DNA of 64,000 nucleotides from Methylomonas sp. AM2-LC. Lineage in GTDB: Bacteria; Pseudomonadota; Gammaproteobacteria; Methylococcales; Methylomonadaceae. The stretch is from positions 1,674,001 through 1,738,000 of the forward strand of contig NZ_CP157005.1 of assembly GCF_039904985.1 (NCBI RefSeq), in the 5' to 3' direction. Shown one piece after another: positions 17,584 through 37,402 of the stretch (within the stretch, counting starts at the first letter, position 1; every line of letters starts with the position of its first letter). The translations under genes and the position numbers were made by a program. The notes beneath the pieces are model-generated. The model was not told the DNA's origin. It made no database searches and saw only the letters and a list, made by a program, of their open reading frames with translations.

Positions 17584-17838
17584 TTAGGGTTGAGGACCCG
17601 CCGCTTTTTCACTTCGAATATGTTCAATCCTAGCACCAAGTCCTTGGGGTTGAAATAATCCACTAGCAAAGGCAATAAATAATAAAATAAACAAAACCAG
17701 TGACAGGCTTATGCGTACTGTCAGCATCTTAGCGGTTTTACCAGACTCATCGCCATCTGGGTGTTTAACCAGATGATATAAAGCCGAGCCTAAACTGCCC
17801 AAAATGGCAATAAAAACAATAATAACGAGAATTTTCAT
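17584..17838 (-). CDS. DUF2909 twin-transmembrane protein (oxidase-associated)
   Basis: An 84-residue protein with two hydrophobic helices, 'ILVIIVFIAILGSLGSALYH' and 'LSLVLFILLFIAFASGLF', separated by a short polar stretch 'LVKHPDGDESGKTAKMLTVR'. This is the layout of DUF2909 proteins, which in many Gammaproteobacteria lie between coxC and the SURF1 gene. Here the SURF1 gene is divergent and adjacent, agreeing with that link. ATG 17838 is preferred over an upstream GTG because it gives the family N-terminus. A role in cytochrome c oxidase assembly is inferred from location only. Confidence 0.75.
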   Translation of the reverse strand: MKILVIIVFIAILGSLGSALYHLVKHPDGDESGKTAKMLTVRISLSLVLFILLFIAFASGLFQPQGLGARIEHIRSEKAAGPQP

Positions 17839-17934
17839 AACTATGACTACATTAAAAACCAAAAAAGTACAGCCATTCTCAACTATACGCGCTATCTTGC
17901 CAATAAATTTAGTGATTAATAAACTGAGAAATAT

Positions 17935-18672
17935 ATGAAGCTGTTGATTGCAAATCGAGAATTACGATTATCGCTACTGGGTATTAGTGTCTATATAGTG
18001 TTATTGGTGCTGTTATGCAGTTTAGGCTTTTGGCAGTTGGATAGGTCTGAGCAGAAACGCCAATTTCTGGAAAAACAACAACAAGCCATGGCTGATGAGA
18101 CTGTTATAAACTTGAATCAACAATCTGTTATAGATTTGGCCGTTAGTCGTTACCTGAAAGTGCAAGTGCACGGTCATTATGATGTTGGGCACCAGTTTTT
18201 AATTGATAACCAGATGCAAGACGGAAAGCCCGGCTATTATGTATTAACGCCGTTTTTAATTGATAACAGTAATCGAGCTGTTCTAGTAAATCGTGGCTGG
18301 TTGCCTTTGGGTGCAGAGCGTAGCCATTTACCCGCAGTTGAAATTAACACAGCAGTATCAGAAATTAATGGTCGCATTAACCAGTTTCCAGCAGTAGGCA
18401 TTAAATTAAAAGGTGCAGAAATTCCAACCAATAGTTGGCCTGCATTAGTGCAAGTGGTTGATAGTGAAGTATTAGCAGCTAAATTGGCTTATGGCTTATA
18501 TAATTTCCAGATAGAATTGGATGCAGAGGCCAGCGAGGGTTATAAACGGCAATGGAAAATTAGTGCCATTATCTCGCCTGAAAAACATCTGGCCTATGCA
18601 GTACAATGGTTCGGTTTAGCCTTGGCCTTAACCGGTTTGTTTATTTGGATCAGTAGTAGAAAATTGAAGTGA
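17935..18672 (+). CDS. SURF1 family cytochrome oxidase biogenesis protein
   Basis: SURF1 (Shy1) proteins assist heme a insertion into subunit I of aa3-type oxidases. The 245-residue protein has the family architecture: an N-terminal helix (residues ~14-34) followed at once by 'LGFWQLDRSEQKRQ', a periplasmic domain with 'DGKPGYYVLTPF' and 'AVLVNRGWLP', and a C-terminal helix beginning 'YAVQWFGLALALTGLFIW', all diagnostic. The next gene starts with a GTG that overlaps its stop (GTGA). It begins an oxidase-assembly operon that runs into ctaA-ftsY. Confidence 0.93.
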   Translation: MKLLIANRELRLSLLGISVYIVLLVLLCSLGFWQLDRSEQKRQFLEKQQQAMADETVINLNQQSVIDLAVSRYLKVQVHGHYDVGHQFLIDNQMQDGKPGYYVLTPFLIDNSNRAVLVNRGWLPLGAERSHLPAVEINTAVSEINGRINQFPAVGIKLKGAEIPTNSWPALVQVVDSEVLAAKLAYGLYNFQIELDAEASEGYKRQWKISAIISPEKHLAYAVQWFGLALALTGLFIWISSRKLK

Positions 18673-19265
18673 ATAGTCAACATAAAAAAAATAAAATCAC
18701 CATTTTAGTGATATTTGCAATGTCTATCATACCGTTTGGAATTGCCTGGTATTTTGCTAGCAATCCAGAAATGCTGACTTTAGGCAAAAGTAATGGCGAT
18801 TTAATTACGCCGCCTCTAACTTCTGAGATAAGAGATTTTACTGGGTATGATCAATTTTCAGCAGATAATATAAAAGAATTATCCGGACATTGGGTGCTGA
18901 TCAATCTGTTGCCCGAATCGGCTTGCCATGAAGTTTGTGTGGAGGCACTATATAAAACTCAGCAAATTAGTTTGATGCTTGGCAAAGATATTTCCAGAGT
19001 TAGACGCGTTGCTGCTCTGTACAGTAAAACCGATCACCCCGTATTTAATGCAGAGTGGCAAGCAGATGGCCATTTGTTAAAAATGGTGTTATCACCCGCC
19101 TTGCAAGAAAAAGTCAATTCCGTACTCGCTACACCGTTAGCGGAGGGTATGTTGCTGTTAATGGATCCGTTGGGTAACCTGATGATGAAATACCCATCAG
19201 GCTATGATGCATATAAAGTTAAAAGCGACATCAGTAAATTATTAAGAATTTCTCAAATCGGTTAG
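18669..19265 (+). CDS. SCO-like thioredoxin-fold protein of the oxidase cluster
   Basis: A 198-residue membrane-anchored protein: one helix (about residues 10-29, 'ITILVIFAMSIIPFGIAWYF') then a periplasmic domain. Residues 74-96 read 'HWVLINLLPESACHEVCVEA', with a Cys-x3-Cys pair at 86 and 90 in the position of the copper-binding cysteines of SCO proteins, followed by 'RRVAALYSK'. A protein of this kind regularly sits between the SURF1 and ctaA genes in Gammaproteobacteria. A copper-delivery or thiol role in oxidase assembly is inferred. GTG start overlaps the SURF1 stop; ctaA-ftsY begins 4 bases after its own stop. Confidence 0.75.
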   Translation: MNSQHKKNKITILVIFAMSIIPFGIAWYFASNPEMLTLGKSNGDLITPPLTSEIRDFTGYDQFSADNIKELSGHWVLINLLPESACHEVCVEALYKTQQISLMLGKDISRVRRVAALYSKTDHPVFNAEWQADGHLLKMVLSPALQEKVNSVLATPLAEGMLLLMDPLGNLMMKYPSGYDAYKVKSDISKLLRISQIG

Positions 19266-19269
19266 AAAC

Positions 19270-21264
19270 ATGTTTAAAAAAATAACGTTTTTTGGCGCGC
19301 TATTGGCGCTGGTGGTGATTATCTTCGGTGCATATGTCAGATTGTCGAATGCTGGCTTGGGCTGTCCAGATTGGCCCGGTTGCTACGGACAGGCAATAGT
19401 GGACGACAGCGCACAATTTAAAAATGCCGCTGAACTAAGCTTTCCTGCTGCACCGCTTGATACTGGCAAAGCCTGGAAAGAAATGACACACCGCTATCTG
19501 GCGGGTGGCTTGGGTCTGATAGTACTTGCACTGCTACCCTTGGGTTGGGGGCAACCCGCGCAGCGCAAACTGGCAATCAGTTTGTTGCTGTTGGTGGTTG
19601 CACAAGCGGCGTTGGGTATGTGGACGGTTAATCTTAAAGTTATGCCGATTGTCGTGACTGCACATATGTTGTTGGGTTTTATGACTTTTTGGTTATTAAG
19701 CTGGACTTATCTACGTGGGCAAGTGGATAGTGTGCCACGCTTAATAAGCGCTGGTCCTGTATGGTTTACTCGCTTTGCCATATTGATTTTAATCCTGCAA
19801 ATAGTCTTAGGTGGCTGGGTTAGTTCCAATTACGCTGCGTTGGCTTGTAGCGATTTTCCGCGCTGTAATGGCAGTTGGTGGCCCACGGCTGATTATGAAG
19901 GCGCTTTAAACTTATTGCATGGCTTAGTGGTTGGCGATGCCTCTATCCTTGATAGTGCTGCACAATTAGCTGCTCACACCCTGCATAGACTGGGTGCGGC
20001 AGTCAGTTTTATCTTATTGTTTTTGCTGATGCTGGTGGCAACAGACCAAAAATATCCTCCTGCCGTGCGTCGATCAGGCACTCTGCTCAGCGTGCTGTTG
20101 CTGCTGCAAATTGTGCTGGGTATTCTCAATATTAAATATTCGCTACCTTTGTGGACAGCCATTGCCCATAACGCTTTTGCCGCTTTATTAATGCTACCGT
20201 TGCTGGGCATTTATTTTTACAGTAAATACAGCTTACCGGCTACTGAGGTGCAGACTCCATTAGCCGAACAGTTGCTTGATGAGAGTATTGCACAACCTTT
20301 AGAAACAATTGTATCCGCAGAAAATTTTACCGCCGTTGAGCCTGAGTCACTGTTTTTAAGACTGAAAACCCAGTTGAAAAAAACCCGTGGTGGTTTGGGG
20401 GCGGTGTTAAACAGTTTGGCGTTTGGACAAAACGCAGTAACTCGTGATTTACTGGAAGAAGTAGAAACCAGTTTATTAACAGCTGATATTGGGATGGAAA
20501 CCACTAATAATATCATCAAAAAACTGACTGAAAGTCTGGAACGCGATCAACTGAAAGATGGAGCCGCGCTTAGTCTAGCCCTGAAACAGAATCTGTATGA
20601 AATGTTACAACCCAGCAGTTTACCCTTACAAATCCCTAAACAGGATAATCCGTTTGTGATACTGGTAGTGGGTGTCAATGGTGCAGGAAAAACCACCTCT
20701 ATTGGTAAACTGGCGCACCGACTGCAAGCACAAGGCCATAGCGTCATGCTGGCTGCGGGTGATACCTTCCGTGCGGCTGCGGTTGAACAATTACAAACTT
20801 GGGGTGAAAGAAATAATGTACAGGTGGTTGCGCAGCAATCGGGTGCTGATTCGGCCTCGGTAATTTTTGATGCCTTACAATCGGCTAAAGCCAAAGGCAT
20901 TGATGTATTGATAGCTGACACAGCCGGTAGATTGCATACCAAATCCAATTTGATGGAAGAACTTAAAAAAATTAAGCGTATCATGGGTAAACTGGATGCC
21001 GATGCTCCGCATGAAGTACTACTGATTCTCGATGCGGGGACTGGTCAAAATGCCTTGTCGCAAGCTCGTTTGTTTAATGAAGCGGTAAATTTGACCGGTA
21101 TTGCCTTAACCAAACTGGATGGAACCGCTAAAGGTGGGGTTATTTTTGCACTGGCAAATCAGTTGGGTTTGCCTATTCGTTTTATCGGCGTCGGTGAAGC
21201 GATAGAGGATTTGCAGGATTTCGACGCACAAACTTTTGTGGATGCTTTGTTTGTAAAAGACTAA
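19270..21264 (+). CDS. ctaA-ftsY: Fusion: heme A synthase (CtaA/COX15) + signal recognition particle receptor FtsY
   Basis: One uninterrupted frame of 664 residues. Residues 1-320 are a complete CtaA, which oxidises the heme O methyl group: eight hydrophobic helices, the cysteine pairs 'CPDWPGC' (32/38) and 'CSDFPRC' (193/199), and heme-ligand histidines 74 ('EMTHRYLAGG'), 132 ('VTAHMLLGF'), 239 ('AHTLHRLGAA') and 300 ('IAHNAFAALL'). Residues ~321-355 are a Glu-rich linker. Residues ~358-664 are the FtsY NG domain: P-loop 'GVNGAGKTTS' (468-477), 'AAGDTFRAAAVEQL', 'DTAGRLH' (from 550) and 'TKLDGTAKGG' (614-623). FtsY normally begins with an acidic A domain; here CtaA takes its place. ftsE starts 4 bases downstream. 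A stop or frameshift was not seen at the junction. An in-frame GTG in the linker could give free FtsY, but its ribosome site is weak. ctaB (cyoE) is not in the window. Confidence 0.9.
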   Translation: MFKKITFFGALLALVVIIFGAYVRLSNAGLGCPDWPGCYGQAIVDDSAQFKNAAELSFPAAPLDTGKAWKEMTHRYLAGGLGLIVLALLPLGWGQPAQRKLAISLLLLVVAQAALGMWTVNLKVMPIVVTAHMLLGFMTFWLLSWTYLRGQVDSVPRLISAGPVWFTRFAILILILQIVLGGWVSSNYAALACSDFPRCNGSWWPTADYEGALNLLHGLVVGDASILDSAAQLAAHTLHRLGAAVSFILLFLLMLVATDQKYPPAVRRSGTLLSVLLLLQIVLGILNIKYSLPLWTAIAHNAFAALLMLPLLGIYFYSKYSLPATEVQTPLAEQLLDESIAQPLETIVSAENFTAVEPESLFLRLKTQLKKTRGGLGAVLNSLAFGQNAVTRDLLEEVETSLLTADIGMETTNNIIKKLTESLERDQLKDGAALSLALKQNLYEMLQPSSLPLQIPKQDNPFVILVVGVNGAGKTTSIGKLAHRLQAQGHSVMLAAGDTFRAAAVEQLQTWGERNNVQVVAQQSGADSASVIFDALQSAKAKGIDVLIADTAGRLHTKSNLMEELKKIKRIMGKLDADAPHEVLLILDAGTGQNALSQARLFNEAVNLTGIALTKLDGTAKGGVIFALANQLGLPIRFIGVGEAIEDLQDFDAQTFVDALFVKD

Positions 21265-21268
21265 AACT

Positions 21269-21931
21269 ATGTTGAGATTCGAGCACGTTTTTAAACGTTA
21301 TCCCGATGCTGGCGAAGCGTTGTCGGATGTTAGCTTTCACCTGGAACGCGGTGAGATGGCTTTTTTAACGGGCCGCTCTGGAGCGGGCAAAAGTACGCTG
21401 TTAAAGTTAATCGCCATGATGGAGCAGACCACCCGTGGTACTGTCTCTTTAGATGGGCAGAATATCAGTCGCATTAGTGATCGGCGTATCCCTTATATGC
21501 GCCGTAACCTTGGGCTGATATTTCAAGATTACAAGCTGTTGAATGACAGAACCGTATTTGATAATGTTGCTTTGCCCTTAATTGTGTGTGGTGTCAGTCA
21601 TCAAGAGATTTCGCGGCGGGTGAGGGCAGCACTGGACAAAGTCAGTTTGTTGGGCAAAGAATGGAAATATCCGCTGGCTTTGTCGGGCGGTGAACAGCAG
21701 CGTGTGGGGATTGCCCGCGCCATTGTTAATAAGCCTAAGCTGATCCTGGCGGATGAACCCACCGGGAACCTAGATCCTGATTTGTCTGCTGAAGTAATGC
21801 ACATGTTTGAAGAGTTTATCCAGGTAGGCGTTACGGTATTAATCGCCACGCATGATATCGAGTTAATCAATAGCCTTGGGCATCGGGTATTAACCCTGGA
21901 TAAAGGCCATTTAATAACGGGTGGCATATGA
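21269..21931 (+). CDS. ftsE: Cell division ABC transporter ATPase FtsE
   Basis: FtsE with FtsX forms an ABC-type complex at the division septum that activates peptidoglycan hydrolases through EnvC. The 220-residue protein has Walker A 'GRSGAGKSTLLK', the Q-loop in 'LIFQDYKLL', the signature 'LSGGEQQRVGIARAI', Walker B 'LILADEPTGNLDP' and the switch His in 'IATHD'. It opens 'MLRFEHVFKRYPDAGEAL', usual for FtsE. It overlaps ftsX by 4 bases (ATGA) and follows the ftsY part of the fusion, preserving the standard ftsY-ftsE-ftsX order. Confidence 0.97.
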   Translation: MLRFEHVFKRYPDAGEALSDVSFHLERGEMAFLTGRSGAGKSTLLKLIAMMEQTTRGTVSLDGQNISRISDRRIPYMRRNLGLIFQDYKLLNDRTVFDNVALPLIVCGVSHQEISRRVRAALDKVSLLGKEWKYPLALSGGEQQRVGIARAIVNKPKLILADEPTGNLDPDLSAEVMHMFEEFIQVGVTVLIATHDIELINSLGHRVLTLDKGHLITGGI

Positions 21932-22890
21932 AAGCAAGACGCGCCAAAGGTTTTATCGACCGTATCAAAGAAAAACTGGAAGCCTATCTGCTGAACCATG
22001 CACATGGTTTGTTTTCCAGCTTAGGGCGTTTGAGTAGAACGCCGTATACCACCGCTATGACGGTATTGGTGTTGACGGTTGCTATTTCACTGGCAGGTGG
22101 TTTTTATATTGTGGTTGCCAATATTCAGCAGCTAACGGGCAATCTGCAAGCCACTAACCAGATGTCGTTATTTTTAATGGATAACATTAACGAAAACGTG
22201 GGCCAGAAGTTGGCCGACCAGATTCGGCAAAACCTGAATGTAGAATCGGTAAAATTCATCAGCAAAAAACAAGCGATGGACGAGTTTAAACAAAATAGTG
22301 GTTTTGGCGATGCGCTAAACGCTTTGGATACTAATCCGTTGCCGAATGTGATACAGGTATTGCCCAGAAATACCCTGGAAAATAACGACGAAGTGAGTAA
22401 ATTGTTAACCGAATTTAAGCAAATGCCGCAAGTGGCGTTAGTGCAGGTGGATATGCAATGGATGGAGCGTTTGCAGACCATTATGACTATTGCCAGTCGG
22501 GGTGTTACGCTGGTAGCTATTTTATTGAGCTTTGCTGTTACCTTTATTACTGGTAATACCATACGTTTGGAATTACAGAATCGCCAGAACGAAGTATTTA
22601 TTTCCAAACTAGTCGGTGCCACGCTGGCCTTTATTCAGCGTCCGTTTCTATACACTGGCTTTTGGCTGGGTTTTCTGTCGGGTTTTTTAGGCTGGGTGGT
22701 GATTACCATTATGTTGTTTTTAATCGAATCGCCCGTAGAAAAACTATCCAGCCTCTACAACAGCAATTTTCAGCTGTTATTTTTAAGTTTTTCTGAGTTT
22801 TTACTGATGCTAATCATTTCGTCATTTTTGTCCATATTGGGTGCCGGAGTGGTTTTGCATGTTCAGTTACGTCAATTAAAACCACAATAA
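21928..22890 (+). CDS. ftsX: Cell division protein FtsX
   Basis: The membrane partner of FtsE, 320 residues. It has a cytoplasmic N-terminal part, a first helix 'TAMTVLVLTVAISLAGGFYI', a periplasmic loop of about 100 residues with 'NQMSLFLMDNINE' (the region that contacts EnvC in enterics), and three C-terminal helices around 'IASRGVTLVAILLSFAVTFI', 'GFWLGFLSGFLGWVVITIML' and the last 25 residues. The segment 'NTIRLELQNRQNEVFISKLV' is the FtsX/MacB coupling motif. In E. coli rpoH follows; here ycgN follows after 4 bases instead. Confidence 0.96.
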   Translation: MKARRAKGFIDRIKEKLEAYLLNHAHGLFSSLGRLSRTPYTTAMTVLVLTVAISLAGGFYIVVANIQQLTGNLQATNQMSLFLMDNINENVGQKLADQIRQNLNVESVKFISKKQAMDEFKQNSGFGDALNALDTNPLPNVIQVLPRNTLENNDEVSKLLTEFKQMPQVALVQVDMQWMERLQTIMTIASRGVTLVAILLSFAVTFITGNTIRLELQNRQNEVFISKLVGATLAFIQRPFLYTGFWLGFLSGFLGWVVITIMLFLIESPVEKLSSLYNSNFQLLFLSFSEFLLMLIISSFLSILGAGVVLHVQLRQLKPQ

Positions 22891-32986: not shown

Positions 32987-34129
32987 GTGAAAAAAACAAA
33001 GCAACTGTTCGTATGTTTGGTGTTAATGGTGTTAAGCCTGAATACTGCGCATGCTGACTATACACTCAACCTTATGCGTGGCGAGACAACGCTTAGTCAT
33101 GAAATTTATGACTTGCATATGCTTATTTTGTGGATTTGTGTGTTTATTGGCGTCGCTGTATTTGGCACCATGTTTTACTCGATCATACATCACCGTAAAT
33201 CAAAAGGGCATGTTGCAGCACAATTTCACGAAAATACTAAAGTTGAAATTATCTGGACAATTATTCCTACTCTGATTCTGATTGGTATGGCGATACCTGC
33301 CACTAAGGCCTTAGTAGATCTGGATAAAACCCAGGAATCCGACATGACTATTAAAGTCACCGGAAAACAATGGTATTGGGATTACGAATATCTGGATAGT
33401 GGTGTTCATTTTGAAAGCCATCTGGACGAAGTCAGTGAAATTGGGCACCGTATTAAGAATAATGATCCGCGTAAATCTGATTCTGCTGAAAAGCCTTATT
33501 TGTTAAGTGTTGACAAGCCTTTGGTAGTACCTGTTAAAAAGAAAATTCGTTTTCTGTTTACCAGTCAGGATGTTATTCACTCTTGGTGGGTGCCTGATTT
33601 AGGTTGGAAAAAAGATGCAAATCCAGGATTTGTTAACGAGGCCTGGACATCAGTCGATAAAGCCGGTACCTATCGTGGTCAATGTACCGAGTTATGTGGC
33701 CGAGATCATGGCTTTATGCCGATTGTAGTCATTGCTATGGAGCAGCCTGATTATGATAAATGGGTAAAATCAACGCTGGATAATCAGAATAAAGCCCCAG
33801 ACTTAAGTGATGAAGAGCGTTCGGTATTAATGACCAACGGTGCTTCCGTCTATATTAAAAATTGTGTGGCCTGTCATCAAATTGATGGTAAGGGCATCTC
33901 TGGCTGGTATCCTGCATTACGTGGTAGTGCTAAAGTAACTGGCAGTATGGATCAGTTGATAGGCTTTGTTCAGGCAGGAACCAGTAAAATGCCAGCATTC
34001 CGTAAATTGCCTGATAATCAGTTAGCAGAATTGCTTACCTATATCAGAAATGCACCGGAGCTGGGTAATAATGTGGGTGATGAAATTCAACCCAACAAAA
34101 TTACGCCTAAATGGGACGACGATGAATAA
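32987..34129 (+). CDS. coxB: Cytochrome c oxidase subunit II with C-terminal cytochrome c domain
   Basis: Receives electrons from cytochrome c and passes them to subunit I. 380 residues: signal peptide ('MKKTKQLFVCLVLMVLSLNT', cleavage after AHA), two helices, the CuA cupredoxin domain with ligands in 'CTELCGRDHGFM' (Cys233, Cys237, His241) and 'QWYWDYEY', then a fused heme c domain with 'CVACHQ' (Cys293, Cys296, His297) and a distal Met in 'SKMPAF'. This is the caa3-like arrangement. The GTG start is supported by GGGAGG at 32974-32979, 7 bases upstream. It heads coxB-coxA-small ORF-ctaG-coxC. Confidence 0.97.
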   Translation: MKKTKQLFVCLVLMVLSLNTAHADYTLNLMRGETTLSHEIYDLHMLILWICVFIGVAVFGTMFYSIIHHRKSKGHVAAQFHENTKVEIIWTIIPTLILIGMAIPATKALVDLDKTQESDMTIKVTGKQWYWDYEYLDSGVHFESHLDEVSEIGHRIKNNDPRKSDSAEKPYLLSVDKPLVVPVKKKIRFLFTSQDVIHSWWVPDLGWKKDANPGFVNEAWTSVDKAGTYRGQCTELCGRDHGFMPIVVIAMEQPDYDKWVKSTLDNQNKAPDLSDEERSVLMTNGASVYIKNCVACHQIDGKGISGWYPALRGSAKVTGSMDQLIGFVQAGTSKMPAFRKLPDNQLAELLTYIRNAPELGNNVGDEIQPNKITPKWDDDE

Positions 34130-34182
34130 GCCAAGTACTTTCTCATTGTACGATTTTTCTAATTATTGTTGAGGTATAGAGT

Positions 34183-35811
34183 ATGTCTGCTGTCGTAGCT
34201 GAGCATGATGATCATCACGATCATGAACACGACCATGAACACCATGGCCCGGAAAAAGGTATTTTGCGCTGGATTATTACCACTAATCACAAAGATATAG
34301 GTACTTTGTATCTGTTTTTTGCACTGGTGATGTTTTTTGTCGGCGGTACCATGGCATTGATTATCCGTGCCGAATTATTTGAACCGGGATTACAGTTTGT
34401 TGATCCTAATTTTTTCAATTCAATGACCACCATGCATGCGCTGGTTATGGTATTTGGAGCGGTTATGCCTGCTTTTGTTGGGCTGGCAAACTGGCAGATA
34501 CCTTTGATGATTGGTGCGCCCGATATGGCGCTGCCACGCATGAATAACATGAGCTTTTGGATGTTGGTGGCGGGTATTTTACTGATTGCCAGCACCTTGT
34601 TTATGGAAGGTGGTGCGCCCTCCGCTGGCTGGACTTTCTATCCACCTTTGGTGATGCAAACTGGCAAAGCGTTTCCTTTTGCTGTTTTCGCTGTCCATTT
34701 GTTGGGTGTGTCTTCCATTATGGGGGCTATCAATATTATCGCGACTATTTTCAATATGCGTGCTCCTGGCATGACATTGATGAAAATGCCTTTGTTCGTC
34801 TGGACTTGGTTAATTACTGCGTTTTTGTTGATTGCCATTATGCCGGTGTTTGCTGGTGCCGTAACCATGTTATTGACCGACCGTTTCTTTGACACCAGCT
34901 TCTTTGATGCTGCAGGTGGTGGTGATCCGGTTCTGTATCAACATATTTTTTGGTTCTTTGGTCATCCAGAAGTGTATGTAATGATTCTGCCAACCTTTGG
35001 TGTTGCTTCTACCATTATTCCAGTATTTGCGCGTAAACCGTTGTTTGGTTATGCGTCTATGGTTTATGCAACAGGTGCTATTGCTTTCCTGTCTTTCATT
35101 GTGTGGGCGCATCACATGTTTACCGTTGGTTTGCCCATCGCGGGTGAGTTGTACTTTATGTACGCTACCATGCTGATTGCTATACCAACAGGTGTAAAGG
35201 TATTTAACTGGACAGCAACTATGTGGAAAGGTGCCATGACTTTTGAAACGCCTATGCTGTTTTCAATTGCCTTTGTGGTACTGTTTACTATGGGTGGTTT
35301 CACAGGTTTAATGATGTCTGTTGCACCTGTTGATTTCCAATATCATGATACTTATTTTATTGTTGCCCATTTTCATTACACTCTAGTACCTGCTTCCATT
35401 TTCATTTTGATGGCCGCTGGTTATTTTTGGTTGCCGAAATGGACTGGACACATGTACAACGAAAGAATCGGTAGATTGCATTTTTGGTTGTCAGTGGTAT
35501 CCGTGAATATTTTGTTCTTTCCACAACATTTTCTGGGTTTAGCAGGTATGCCACGTCGGATACCTGATTATGCTATCCAATTTGCGGATTGGAATATGGT
35601 GTCGAGTATCGGCGCATTTATGTATGGCTTTAGTCAATTGATATTTGTATGGATTGTTATTGATACCATCAAAGGCGGAACTGGCGAAAAAGTAACAGAT
35701 GAAGTATGGGAAGATGCAAGTAAGCACAGTCTGGAATGGACTTTGCCATCACCACTTCCGTATCATACCTTTACTACACCGCCTGAAGTTATCCCAACCG
35801 AGCACGTTTAA
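34183..35811 (+). CDS. coxA: Cytochrome c oxidase subunit I
   Basis: The catalytic subunit of the aa3-type oxidase, 542 residues with 12 predicted helices. Heme and CuB ligands are seen in 'TMHALVMVFG' (low-spin heme His), 'FWFFGHPEVYVMILP' (CuB His and the cross-linked Tyr), 'WAHHMFTVG' (two CuB His) and 'YFIVAHFHYTL' (heme a3 and a His pair). The N-terminal ~26 residues are strikingly rich in His and Asp ('EHDDHHDHEHDHEHH') before the usual 'ILRWIITTNHKDIGTLYLFF'. That tail could bind copper or other metals; this is inference. It is followed by a short membrane ORF and ctaG. Confidence 0.98.
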   Translation: MSAVVAEHDDHHDHEHDHEHHGPEKGILRWIITTNHKDIGTLYLFFALVMFFVGGTMALIIRAELFEPGLQFVDPNFFNSMTTMHALVMVFGAVMPAFVGLANWQIPLMIGAPDMALPRMNNMSFWMLVAGILLIASTLFMEGGAPSAGWTFYPPLVMQTGKAFPFAVFAVHLLGVSSIMGAINIIATIFNMRAPGMTLMKMPLFVWTWLITAFLLIAIMPVFAGAVTMLLTDRFFDTSFFDAAGGGDPVLYQHIFWFFGHPEVYVMILPTFGVASTIIPVFARKPLFGYASMVYATGAIAFLSFIVWAHHMFTVGLPIAGELYFMYATMLIAIPTGVKVFNWTATMWKGAMTFETPMLFSIAFVVLFTMGGFTGLMMSVAPVDFQYHDTYFIVAHFHYTLVPASIFILMAAGYFWLPKWTGHMYNERIGRLHFWLSVVSVNILFFPQHFLGLAGMPRRIPDYAIQFADWNMVSSIGAFMYGFSQLIFVWIVIDTIKGGTGEKVTDEVWEDASKHSLEWTLPSPLPYHTFTTPPEVIPTEHV

Positions 35812-35874
35812 TTTCGGCTGGAAGTCAATTAATAACCCCTCGGTTAAATAAAAGGCCGGGGGGTGGGTGAGATA

Positions 35875-35973
35875 ATGGATATAAAGAAAAAGAATATTCT
35901 GACCGCTATAATTTTGGTGATAGTCGCTGCTACCATTTACGTGTTTGCCGTATTAAAGGCAATGTCGCAATGA
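35875..35973 (+). CDS. Small single-helix protein of the cox operon (32 aa)
   Basis: An ATG at 35875, after a GGTGGGTGAG ribosome region, opens 32 codons: a basic start 'MDIKKKN' then one hydrophobic helix 'ILTAIILVIVAATIYVFAVL'. It overlaps the ctaG start by 4 bases (ATGA), a strong sign of real translation. Short proteins of this type between coxA and ctaG are seen in other proteobacterial cox operons; a role in oxidase assembly is likely but not shown. Confidence 0.7.
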   Translation: MDIKKKNILTAIILVIVAATIYVFAVLKAMSQ

Positions 35974-36512
35974 GTGAAGATCTGCAGCAAAAAAATACCA
36001 AACTGGCAAAAAAGTTGCTGATTTTGGCGGTATTAATGTTTGGTTTTGGTTATGCTTTAGTACCACTCTACGATGTACTTTGCGACCTAACTGGGCAAAA
36101 TATTAAACTAGAATCGGCTACCAATAGCGAAGAAGTGTTTGCTGTGGATGAAAGTCGGGAGATTAGGGTTGAATTTATTACTTCGGTTAACGAATCAACA
36201 CCTTTAACTTTTCGTGCCGAAACCAATAGTTTGAAAGTGCATCCTGGTCAATATTACACGGTAAATTTTTATGCTAAAAATAATACAGATCAAGCACTAA
36301 AAGCTCAGGCTATTCCCAGTATTTCGCCGGGGTTGGCAGAAGAATTTTTTAAAAAAGTGCAATGTTTTTGTTTTACAACCCAAACATTTGCGGGTAAAGA
36401 AGAAAAAACCATGCCGGTTCGGTTCGTGGTAAACCCAAAATTGCCTGAGCGTTATAAAACTATTACCTTGTCATACACTTTTTTTGACAGAACAAATATT
36501 ATTGAAAATTAA
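35970..36512 (+). CDS. ctaG: Cytochrome c oxidase assembly protein CtaG (Cox11)
   Basis: Delivers copper to the CuB site of subunit I. The 180-residue protein has one N-terminal helix ('LLILAVLMFGFGYALVPLYD') with 'YDVLCDLTGQN' directly after it, an immunoglobulin-like periplasmic domain, and the copper-binding motif 'KVQCFCFTTQ' with Cys-Phe-Cys-Phe, then 'PVRFVVNPKLP' and 'LSYTFFD', all Cox11 signatures. Its start overlaps the small ORF upstream; coxC follows after 14 bases, with a GGGGAAGGG ribosome region between. Confidence 0.97.
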   Translation: MSEDLQQKNTKLAKKLLILAVLMFGFGYALVPLYDVLCDLTGQNIKLESATNSEEVFAVDESREIRVEFITSVNESTPLTFRAETNSLKVHPGQYYTVNFYAKNNTDQALKAQAIPSISPGLAEEFFKKVQCFCFTTQTFAGKEEKTMPVRFVVNPKLPERYKTITLSYTFFDRTNIIEN

Positions 36513-36526
36513 CAAAGGGGAAGGGC

Positions 36527-37402
36527 ATGTCTACAAACATAGGTTATTATATCCCGCATAAGGCAGTATGGCCGGTGCTAGCTACCGCTGGTCTAATGTT
36601 TATGCTGATTGGTTTTGCAAATCATTTAAATGGTTCATCAATTGGGTCTGGCATGATGCTGACCGGATTTGTCGTTTTTATAGTGATGCTGGGTGCTTGG
36701 TTTGCCTTGCAAGCGAATGAAAGTGAATCTGGCATGTATAACCATGGCGTTGGTATTTCGTATCGGATGGCCATGATGTGGTTTATTTTTTCAGAAATCA
36801 TGTTTTTTGCAGTGTTTTTTGGTGCACTTTGGTACACCCGGAACCTGTCTGTTTCCTGGTTGGGTGAAACGGGTGCCTTAAGCGGTCCTGGTCGTTCTAC
36901 CCATGATACATTGTGGCCAGCGTTTCAGGCTGTATGGCCAACCAATGGTCCCGGTAAAGTGGGTGGTGATTTTGAGCCAATGGGCGCTTTTGGTTTACCA
37001 TTCTTAAATACCTTGCTGTTGTTATCCAGTGGTGTTACTTGTACCTGGGCGCATCATGGCTTATTGGCGAAAAACAGACCGCAACTGATTAAAGGCTTAA
37101 TTGCTACTGTTGCGCTGGGCTTTTTGTTCGTGGCTTGTCAAGCAACAGAATATTATGAAGCGTATCATGAAATGGGTTTAACTTTAGGTACCGGTATTTA
37201 TGGTTCTACCTTTTTTATGCTGACTGGCTTTCATGGTCTGCATGTCTGTATCGGTGCCATCATTTTATCGGTGGTATTATTCAGAAGTTGGAAAGGGCAT
37301 TTCACACCAGAAAATCATTTTGCGTTCGAAGCTGCAGCCTGGTACTGGCACTTTGTTGACGTGGTTTGGTTGGGACTGTTTGTCTTCGTTTACTTACTGT
37401 AA
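36527..37402 (+). CDS. coxC: Cytochrome c oxidase subunit III
   Basis: The third core subunit, 291 residues and seven predicted helices. Family blocks include 'YYIPHKAVWPVLATAGLMFM', 'WFIFSEIMFFAVFFGALWY', 'LNTLLLLSSGVTCTWAHHGL', 'ATEYYEAYHEMG' and 'FAFEAAAWYWHFVDVVWLGL'. It ends the operon: a strong terminator lies 18 bases downstream. In many relatives DUF2909, SURF1 and ctaA follow here; in this genome those genes are at 17.6-21.3 kb instead. Confidence 0.97.
   Translation: MSTNIGYYIPHKAVWPVLATAGLMFMLIGFANHLNGSSIGSGMMLTGFVVFIVMLGAWFALQANESESGMYNHGVGISYRMAMMWFIFSEIMFFAVFFGALWYTRNLSVSWLGETGALSGPGRSTHDTLWPAFQAVWPTNGPGKVGGDFEPMGAFGLPFLNTLLLLSSGVTCTWAHHGLLAKNRPQLIKGLIATVALGFLFVACQATEYYEAYHEMGLTLGTGIYGSTFFMLTGFHGLHVCIGAIILSVVLFRSWKGHFTPENHFAFEAAAWYWHFVDVVWLGLFVFVYLL

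Follow-up and report, generated by a model that had tools for sequence, protein, structure and literature searches.

Why should the receptor of the signal recognition particle (SRP) share a polypeptide chain with a heme A synthase? The question is posed by one gene of Methylomonas sp. AM2-LC within a 64,000-nucleotide stretch of DNA (the window, in whose numbering all coordinates are given), which an initial annotation had read as a single-frame fusion of the heme A synthase CtaA and the SRP receptor FtsY. The frame at 19270..21264 on the forward strand, stop codon included, starts with ATG and stays open over 664 amino acids. Pfam assigns COX15-CtaA to residues 5-309 (PF02628; 19282..20196, forward strand), SRP54_N to residues 380-442 and the SRP54 GTPase domain to residues 461-661. 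The NCBIfam FtsY equivalog TIGR00064 scores the protein at 370.6 bits against a cut-off of 260.7, and the Ffh and FlhF models score it below their own cut-offs.

The predicted structure of the fusion consists of eight long CtaA helices, an unstructured stretch and an NG domain. The helices are modeled with high confidence: when residues 1-320 are divided into 32 blocks of ten, mean pLDDT is at least 90 in 30 of them. They form an N bundle, TM1-TM4 (residues 2-149; 19273..19716, forward strand), and a C bundle, TM5-TM8 (residues 164-319; 19759..20226, forward strand), which are taken as the substrate-heme half and the heme-b half respectively, following PMC7327177 and PMC8239418. The N bundle contains E71 (19480-19482), H74 (19489-19491), H132 (19663-19665) and the ECL1 cysteines C32/C38, all intact in the window and often lost in relatives. 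The C bundle contains H239 (19984-19986), H300 (20167-20169) and the ECL3 cysteines C193/C199, which are nearly invariant among fused proteins. The description of a complete CtaA with four heme-ligand histidines and both cysteine pairs is therefore borne out residue by residue, and Glu71 can be added to it. PF02628, the eight helices, both cysteine pairs, E71 and the four histidines are likewise features of the class B (type 1.1) enzymes such as B. subtilis CtaA and the free CtaA of Cycloclasticus, and with every class B residue in place the CtaA half of the window's species is probably active as well. Unlike those enzymes it is fused to FtsY, and most related genera have a damaged N-bundle site alongside a retained C-bundle site. 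The FtsY half fills the structure-search lists, which are for this reason uninformative on the CtaA fold; CtaA was assigned from Pfam together with a match of 50 bits to chain 8aw5, "Heme O oxygenase".

The remainder of the protein is a complete FtsY NG GTPase, as annotated (residues 358-664; 20341..21261, forward strand). It overlays the E. coli FtsY-NG with a TMt of 0.92 in the structure search, shares ~63-64% identity and the G motifs with the E. coli protein (PDB 2yhs, 2qy9), and has GTPase motif residues that are invariant in 50 aligned fused members. The halves are separated by a disordered acidic linker (residues 329-357; 20254..20340, forward strand; pLDDT <50), which measures 42 residues and has a net charge of -6 in the window protein when reckoned from the last helix to FtsY, again in agreement with the initial reading. 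The pTM of the model is only 0.56, so that the relative placement of the two halves is not predicted. The acidic A domain of FtsY is poorly conserved and not universal. The annotated lack of this domain stands in part: an E. coli-type acidic A domain was not found in the window protein, which has the eight-helix CtaA half and a short linker in its place, but the amphipathic alphaN1 helix is still there, since the alignment to the E. coli FtsY chain 2yhs begins at residue 341 and extends to residue 663. The strict alphaN1 motif occurs in 93 of 132 fused members, and the eight misses inspected among the other 39 are near variants.

The fusion is the only FtsY of its genome. The SRP54 family has three genes in this 5.39-Mb assembly (three contigs, 100% complete), namely the fusion, Ffh (TIGR00959) and a third of FlhF-like size, and a search of the whole genome for the family found no separate ftsY; nor did any of 54 fused genomes, among 61, have a further match above the level of Ffh. 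The same does not apply to CtaA, and the idea that the fused copy is the sole CtaA is ruled out by a second, free one, a 339-amino acid frame with PF02628 (G000 C1:3214840-3215733; locus L005, L256:8805-9806). In this protein asparagine replaces the first heme-ligand histidine and the ECL3 cysteine pair is absent. All 41 second CtaAs compared have both ECL1 cysteines, asparagine in the H74 column and a gap in the C199 column, which fits type 1.3 as given in Table 1 of PMC8239418 (ECL1 pair, no ECL3 pair, H60N). The gene for the free CtaA of this genome has an HDOD protein upstream and a DEAD-box helicase downstream among its nearest neighbours, and none of the three neighbours tested is an oxidase gene. 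A heme O synthase gene is present in the genome, and the window has coxB, coxA, ctaG and coxC at 32987-37399.

Although the initial annotation had treated the fusion as a novelty of one genome, searching Methylococcales genomes for CtaA and FtsY in one chain found it in 179 of the 181 genomes of families f1-f6, in an order sample of 201 that includes 20 genomes of families f7 and f8. For 150 of the 179 the evidence is a single listed match that begins within CtaA and continues in frame into FtsY; three came from another genome search and 26 of 28 from a further check, some being cut by contig ends. The count includes G193, with two matches inside one 634-amino acid frame, and G204, judged from a frame at a contig end. 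The two exceptions belong to family f4. In the draft genome G106 (locus L162, genus g45) the frame is broken into two overlapping frames and part of the FtsY C-terminal region is missing, possibly an assembly fault. G117 (locus L163, genus g43) has a lone CtaA with aspartate in the place of Glu71 and no FtsY behind it; neither FtsY nor Ffh was found in this 89% complete genome. Three CtaA matches occur in G100, which shares its genus with G117, and the lone CtaA of the L163 type is possibly a free copy derived from a fused one. None of the 20 f7/f8 genomes shows the fusion, seven having two separate genes and 13 being judged only by best scores, none of them higher than FtsY by itself would give; the names of closely similar CtaAs point to family f7 being Cycloclasticus-like. 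Among the matches listed from a class sample of 369 genomes, spanning matches occur only in the three f1-f6 genomes drawn and none lies outside the order; FtsY frames of 500-990 amino acids in that sample were rejected as fusions, as the query matched their FtsY half only. Since it is spread across nearly the whole order sample the fusion must be old, and fused proteins in a 50-row alignment are 44-75% identical to that of the window.

The sequences compared below come from 145 loci, namely 140 that map to 137 genomes and five named public loci (L036-L040). Thirteen are without a full fused frame (six f7/f8 loci, five contig-edge pieces, L162 and L163), which leaves 132 fused frames, from 127 genomes and the five named loci, all 132 with a CtaA match. 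L086 and L101, long FtsY frames of other phyla that had passed the length filter, were left out of the fused set. Three fused frames, L129 (G046), L196 (G091) and L034 (G005), are 775-878 amino acids long, with extra N-terminal length before CtaA and an uncertain start codon.

The gene lies between a SURF1/SCO-like pair and ftsE-ftsX, as had been claimed, and this order is general. Over 74 fused loci, some of which stop at contig edges, the neighbours are DUF2909 (17584..17862, reverse strand; 62 of 74), the cytochrome oxidase assembly gene SURF1 (17935..18672; 68 of 74) and the SCO-like gene (18669..19265; 70 of 74), followed by ctaA-ftsY and mostly then by ftsE directly downstream (21269..21931; 63 of 74) and ftsX (21928..22890; 61 of 74), all on the forward strand save the first; the 11 fused loci without ftsE are all of family f4. 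The SCO-like protein gives a weak match, 43 bits against a cut-off of 230, to the NCBIfam PA_0111/PP_0108 redox-active disulfide family. In the window the cox cluster follows the fusion at a distance of ~12 kb, while many other genera have coxA ~3-4 kb upstream of the fusion. At four f7/f8 loci ftsY-ftsE-ftsX faces ctaA, SCO-like and SURF1, and in a fifth f7/f8 genome the ftsY and ctaA groups are on separate contigs. The two gene orders suggest that one inversion joined the 3' end of ctaA to the 5' end of ftsY, which would account for both. In an FtsY tree of 121 rows, with genus g1 thinned so that 110 of the 127 fused genomes were kept, the 110 fused rows form one branch at an SH-aLRT of 94 (quick method), below the starred level. 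As a separate observation, free ftsY also faces an opposite-strand ctaA a few kb away in L096 (Herminiimonas) and L099 (Glaciimonas), as in f7/f8, so that such a neighbourhood may predate the order.

What the initial annotation missed is that the catalytic residues of the CtaA half have decayed in most fused genera. Among the 132 fused proteins the residues of the N half are kept in 103 (C32), 100 (C38), 53 (E71), 93 (H74) and 89 (H132), and those of the C half in 128 (C193), 128 (C199), 129 (H239) and 132 (H300). The only invariant CtaA positions in the 50-sequence alignment, G181, C193, P197, C199, H239, R240 and H300, are all in the C half. Among 120 free CtaAs, by comparison, E71 is present in 119 (one gap), H74 and H132 in every one, and H239 and H300 in 118 each (two gaps each). 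Part of this contrast reflects depth, as the free set, with mean pairwise identity ~0.62, is closer-knit than the fused set (0.34 in the N half and 0.42 in the C half). The 41 second CtaAs (0.71 and 0.59) are the fairer control because they come from the same genomes, that of the window and 40 other fused ones; E71, H132, H239, H300 and both ECL1 cysteines are kept in 41 of 41, with asparagine for H74 throughout. With gaps scored as loss, the fewest changes on the FtsY tree are 20 for E71, 18 for H74, 18 for H132, 2 for H239 and none for H300. Glu71, His74 and His132 are all kept in 43 of 127 fused genomes. Of 46 genera with fused sequence nine are intact throughout, three are mixed and 34 are without an intact member; the intact genomes include 30 of the 31 examined in genus g1. 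Tyrosine replaces H239 only in L142, L149 and L213, of genus g15, and the same three have lost the ECL3 cysteines. CtaA activity is stated in PMC8239418 to depend on the ECL1 and not the ECL3 cysteines, and to judge from the aligned residues conservation in the fused family is nearly the opposite of what that enzyme needs. A lost residue is not in itself proof of lost activity, given that Table 1 of PMC8239418 has free CtaA types with natural substitutions at E57, H60 or H123, and that the second CtaAs carry asparagine at H74; the N-half alignments are moreover unsure in the most decayed members.

The membrane helices are mostly retained through this decay. By hydropathy 99 of the 132 fused proteins have eight helices, 22 have seven, seven have six, three have nine and one has five. 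The fused protein of genus g32 is ~100 residues shorter, and in the model of L137 from that genus six helices are predicted, with TM2-TM3 and the E71/H74 site apparently missing and the four C-bundle helices kept. An even number of helices in the g32 type would keep FtsY on the cytoplasmic side.

The reading that we favor, at a probability of roughly 0.72, is that a working enzyme became the permanent anchor of FtsY and that its catalytic half then decayed repeatedly, with the heme-b bundle kept. The sole SRP receptor of the methanotrophic Methylococcales would be an eight-helix integral membrane protein because a cox-cluster ctaA was joined in frame to ftsY once, probably via an inversion in the common ancestor. 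Its CtaA half would insert in the membrane so that its C-terminus emerges on the cytoplasmic side, where some 30-40 residues of flexible acidic linker would replace the A domain in tethering the NG GTPase at the membrane. The alphaN1 helix would remain for SRP-triggered engagement, with SRP docking and GTP hydrolysis likely proceeding as in E. coli. Across most of the remaining genera, catalytic residues appear to have disappeared from the substrate bundle, a loss plausibly permitted by a second CtaA that stands free. The C bundle, which holds the heme-b histidines and the periplasmic pair of cysteines, would survive as a folded and probably heme-b-containing anchor; the retained ligands point to its still binding heme b, at least as a structural cofactor. 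The earlier proposal, that CtaA takes over from the A domain as a likely permanent anchor in the membrane, gains support. FtsY is described as acting only at the membrane (PMC2780400), and the A domain as restraining stable membrane binding of FtsY, a restraint that a short N-terminal motif overcomes (PMC5533587); with the CtaA half as anchor both the restraint and the motif would become unnecessary.

An account that overlaps this one, and differs mainly in denying the heme-b bundle a role, is that the fusion was an accident without benefit and the CtaA half is merely tolerated, with no way back for an essential gene, ftsY, that had lost its own start and A domain. A single origin with no clear reversal (179 of 181 genomes fused), the repeated change of the N half and the fast-changing linker seen in the pairwise dN/dS comparisons all agree with such a ratchet. 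A pure passenger would have no need of the heme ligands and ECL3 cysteines that are nearly invariant, however, and a simple helical anchor could have taken the place of the CtaA half. The C half is also under purifying selection. By a simple counting method with saturated values, applied to 18 chosen pairs (12 with damaged and six with intact sites), dN/dS is below 1 for every part of every usable pair; the N half has a higher value than the C half in all 11 usable damaged-site pairs and in 2 of the 5 usable intact-site pairs. Unusable were L182/L217 (damaged), without a C-half ratio, and L006/L008 (intact), without an N-half ratio. The FtsY value is the lowest or nearly so, save in one nearly identical pair. 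On this evidence tolerance alone is unlikely, although it has a minor chance of being right.

A more ambitious proposal starts from the C bundle, which is the trimer core in the Aquifex heme A synthase as described in PMC7327177, so that the fused receptors may be trimers. The bundle would then be a heme-b-binding, trimer-forming core that makes the SRP receptor oligomeric and heme- or redox-responsive, occupancy of H239/H300 or the state of the C193/C199 pair tuning ribosome docking, and the synthase site would be discarded where the second CtaA serves the oxidase. We regard this as a speculative and rather doubtful extension of the residue pattern.

The initial annotation had supposed that the fusion ties the targeting of membrane proteins to heme A production, with a working heme A synthase and SRP receptor in one bifunctional protein, through which the supply of heme A would be linked to the insertion of oxidase subunit I and other membrane proteins. 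Favorable to it are the catalytic residues, all intact in the window and in nearly all g1 genomes examined, and the position of the gene beside the SURF1 and SCO-like oxidase assembly genes. As a general explanation it is not supported: 84 of 127 fused genomes have lost at least one of E71, H74 and H132 and still have the fusion, so its persistence must have another cause than a coupling to heme A synthesis; moreover the second CtaA is unfused. The second-CtaA and COX1 surveys covered 72 chosen genomes. Of the 67 fused genomes checked for both the site and a second CtaA, 64 have a second and three have the fused CtaA only. A free second CtaA was found in 51 of 51 damaged-site genomes among those checked, and since 13 of the 64 genomes with a second CtaA keep an intact fused site, its presence does not force decay. 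All three genomes with only the fused CtaA keep the site, as coupling would predict, but they represent two lineages (g34 and f5), one of the three genomes, G040, being a 94% complete draft, so that the link to the second CtaA is suggestive and not proven. In G178 the Pfam model lists the second CtaA alone, the fused one having diverged too far to match it. In G184 (f1 g34), whose sole CtaA is the fused one with all catalytic residues, no COX1-family match was found in the 99% complete 1.7-Mb genome, and a need for heme A cannot then be the whole reason for the intact site there. A dual role is possible in the window's own species, where the site is intact; as an explanation of the fusion at large, coupling is a long shot.

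It is improbable that the permanent tether is undone by an internal start or by proteolysis in the linker, which would release FtsY as a separate product. Reportedly, to judge from the title of a 2008 paper by Weiche, the FtsY of E. coli has a cleavable N-terminal anchor, and the linker of the window protein contains one GTG, with another at the start of the N domain. The linker has no ATG, however, and neither GTG has a Shine-Dalgarno-like match. Over the fused set an ATG or GTG occurs in the region in 87 of 132 members and an upstream Shine-Dalgarno-like match in only 13, the matched starts falling at scattered places among the rows inspected; a conserved internal start with such a match was found in none of the positions of the 132 members, and this candidate was rejected. 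An assembly or sequencing artefact that joined two genes, to which only the two odd draft loci G106 (L162) and G117 (L163) might point, is refuted by the distribution, since 179 of 181 genomes, several of them assembled as one contig, join the two genes in frame in the same way.

A membrane-held FtsY is not without parallel. The integral-membrane FtsY of Actinobacteria, as described for S. lividans (PMC6022935, PMC2780400), is also a natural FtsY with a membrane segment, but there the segment is the protein's own hydrophobic N-terminus, whereas that of the fusion is an unrelated eight-helix enzyme domain, PF02628. FtsY tethered by a transmembrane protein works in E. coli, according to PMC2780400 citing Zelazny 1997; in that construct too the NG domain is held by a membrane protein and is functional in vivo, as cited, although it was made in the laboratory and CtaA-FtsY evolved and became fixed in a large clade. 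CtaA also shares one chain with another protein in the CtaA-CtaB fusions of Table 1 of PMC8239418, where the partner is an enzyme of the same pathway and not an SRP component. FtsY is essential and nearly universal, and how firm its membrane seat must be has long been argued. A large clade whose only SRP receptor is seemingly fixed in a permanently anchored form, with no A domain and no cytosolic pool expected, would offer a natural system in which to test anchoring, and the repeated damage to the catalytic half with the heme-b half kept looks like a many-times-repeated case of an enzyme turning into a scaffold.

That no such fusion was known still holds for the open-access full-text literature searched, where the titles and abstract starts of the papers listed show no report of a CtaA-FtsY fusion; FtsY does not appear in the main text of two CtaA papers, PMC8239418 and PMC9145763. 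The fusion is already in the databases, labelled by one half only. Five of 80 named public loci are fused (L036-L040, with titles naming Methylobacter, Methylococcus, Methyloprofundus, Methylococcales and Methylococcaceae) and 75 match the FtsY end only, and in Methylomonas, Methylomarinum and Methylosarcina the public name is "signal recognition particle-docking protein FtsY". As these names give FtsY only, surveys of oxidase biogenesis can overlook the CtaA or score a dead copy as present.
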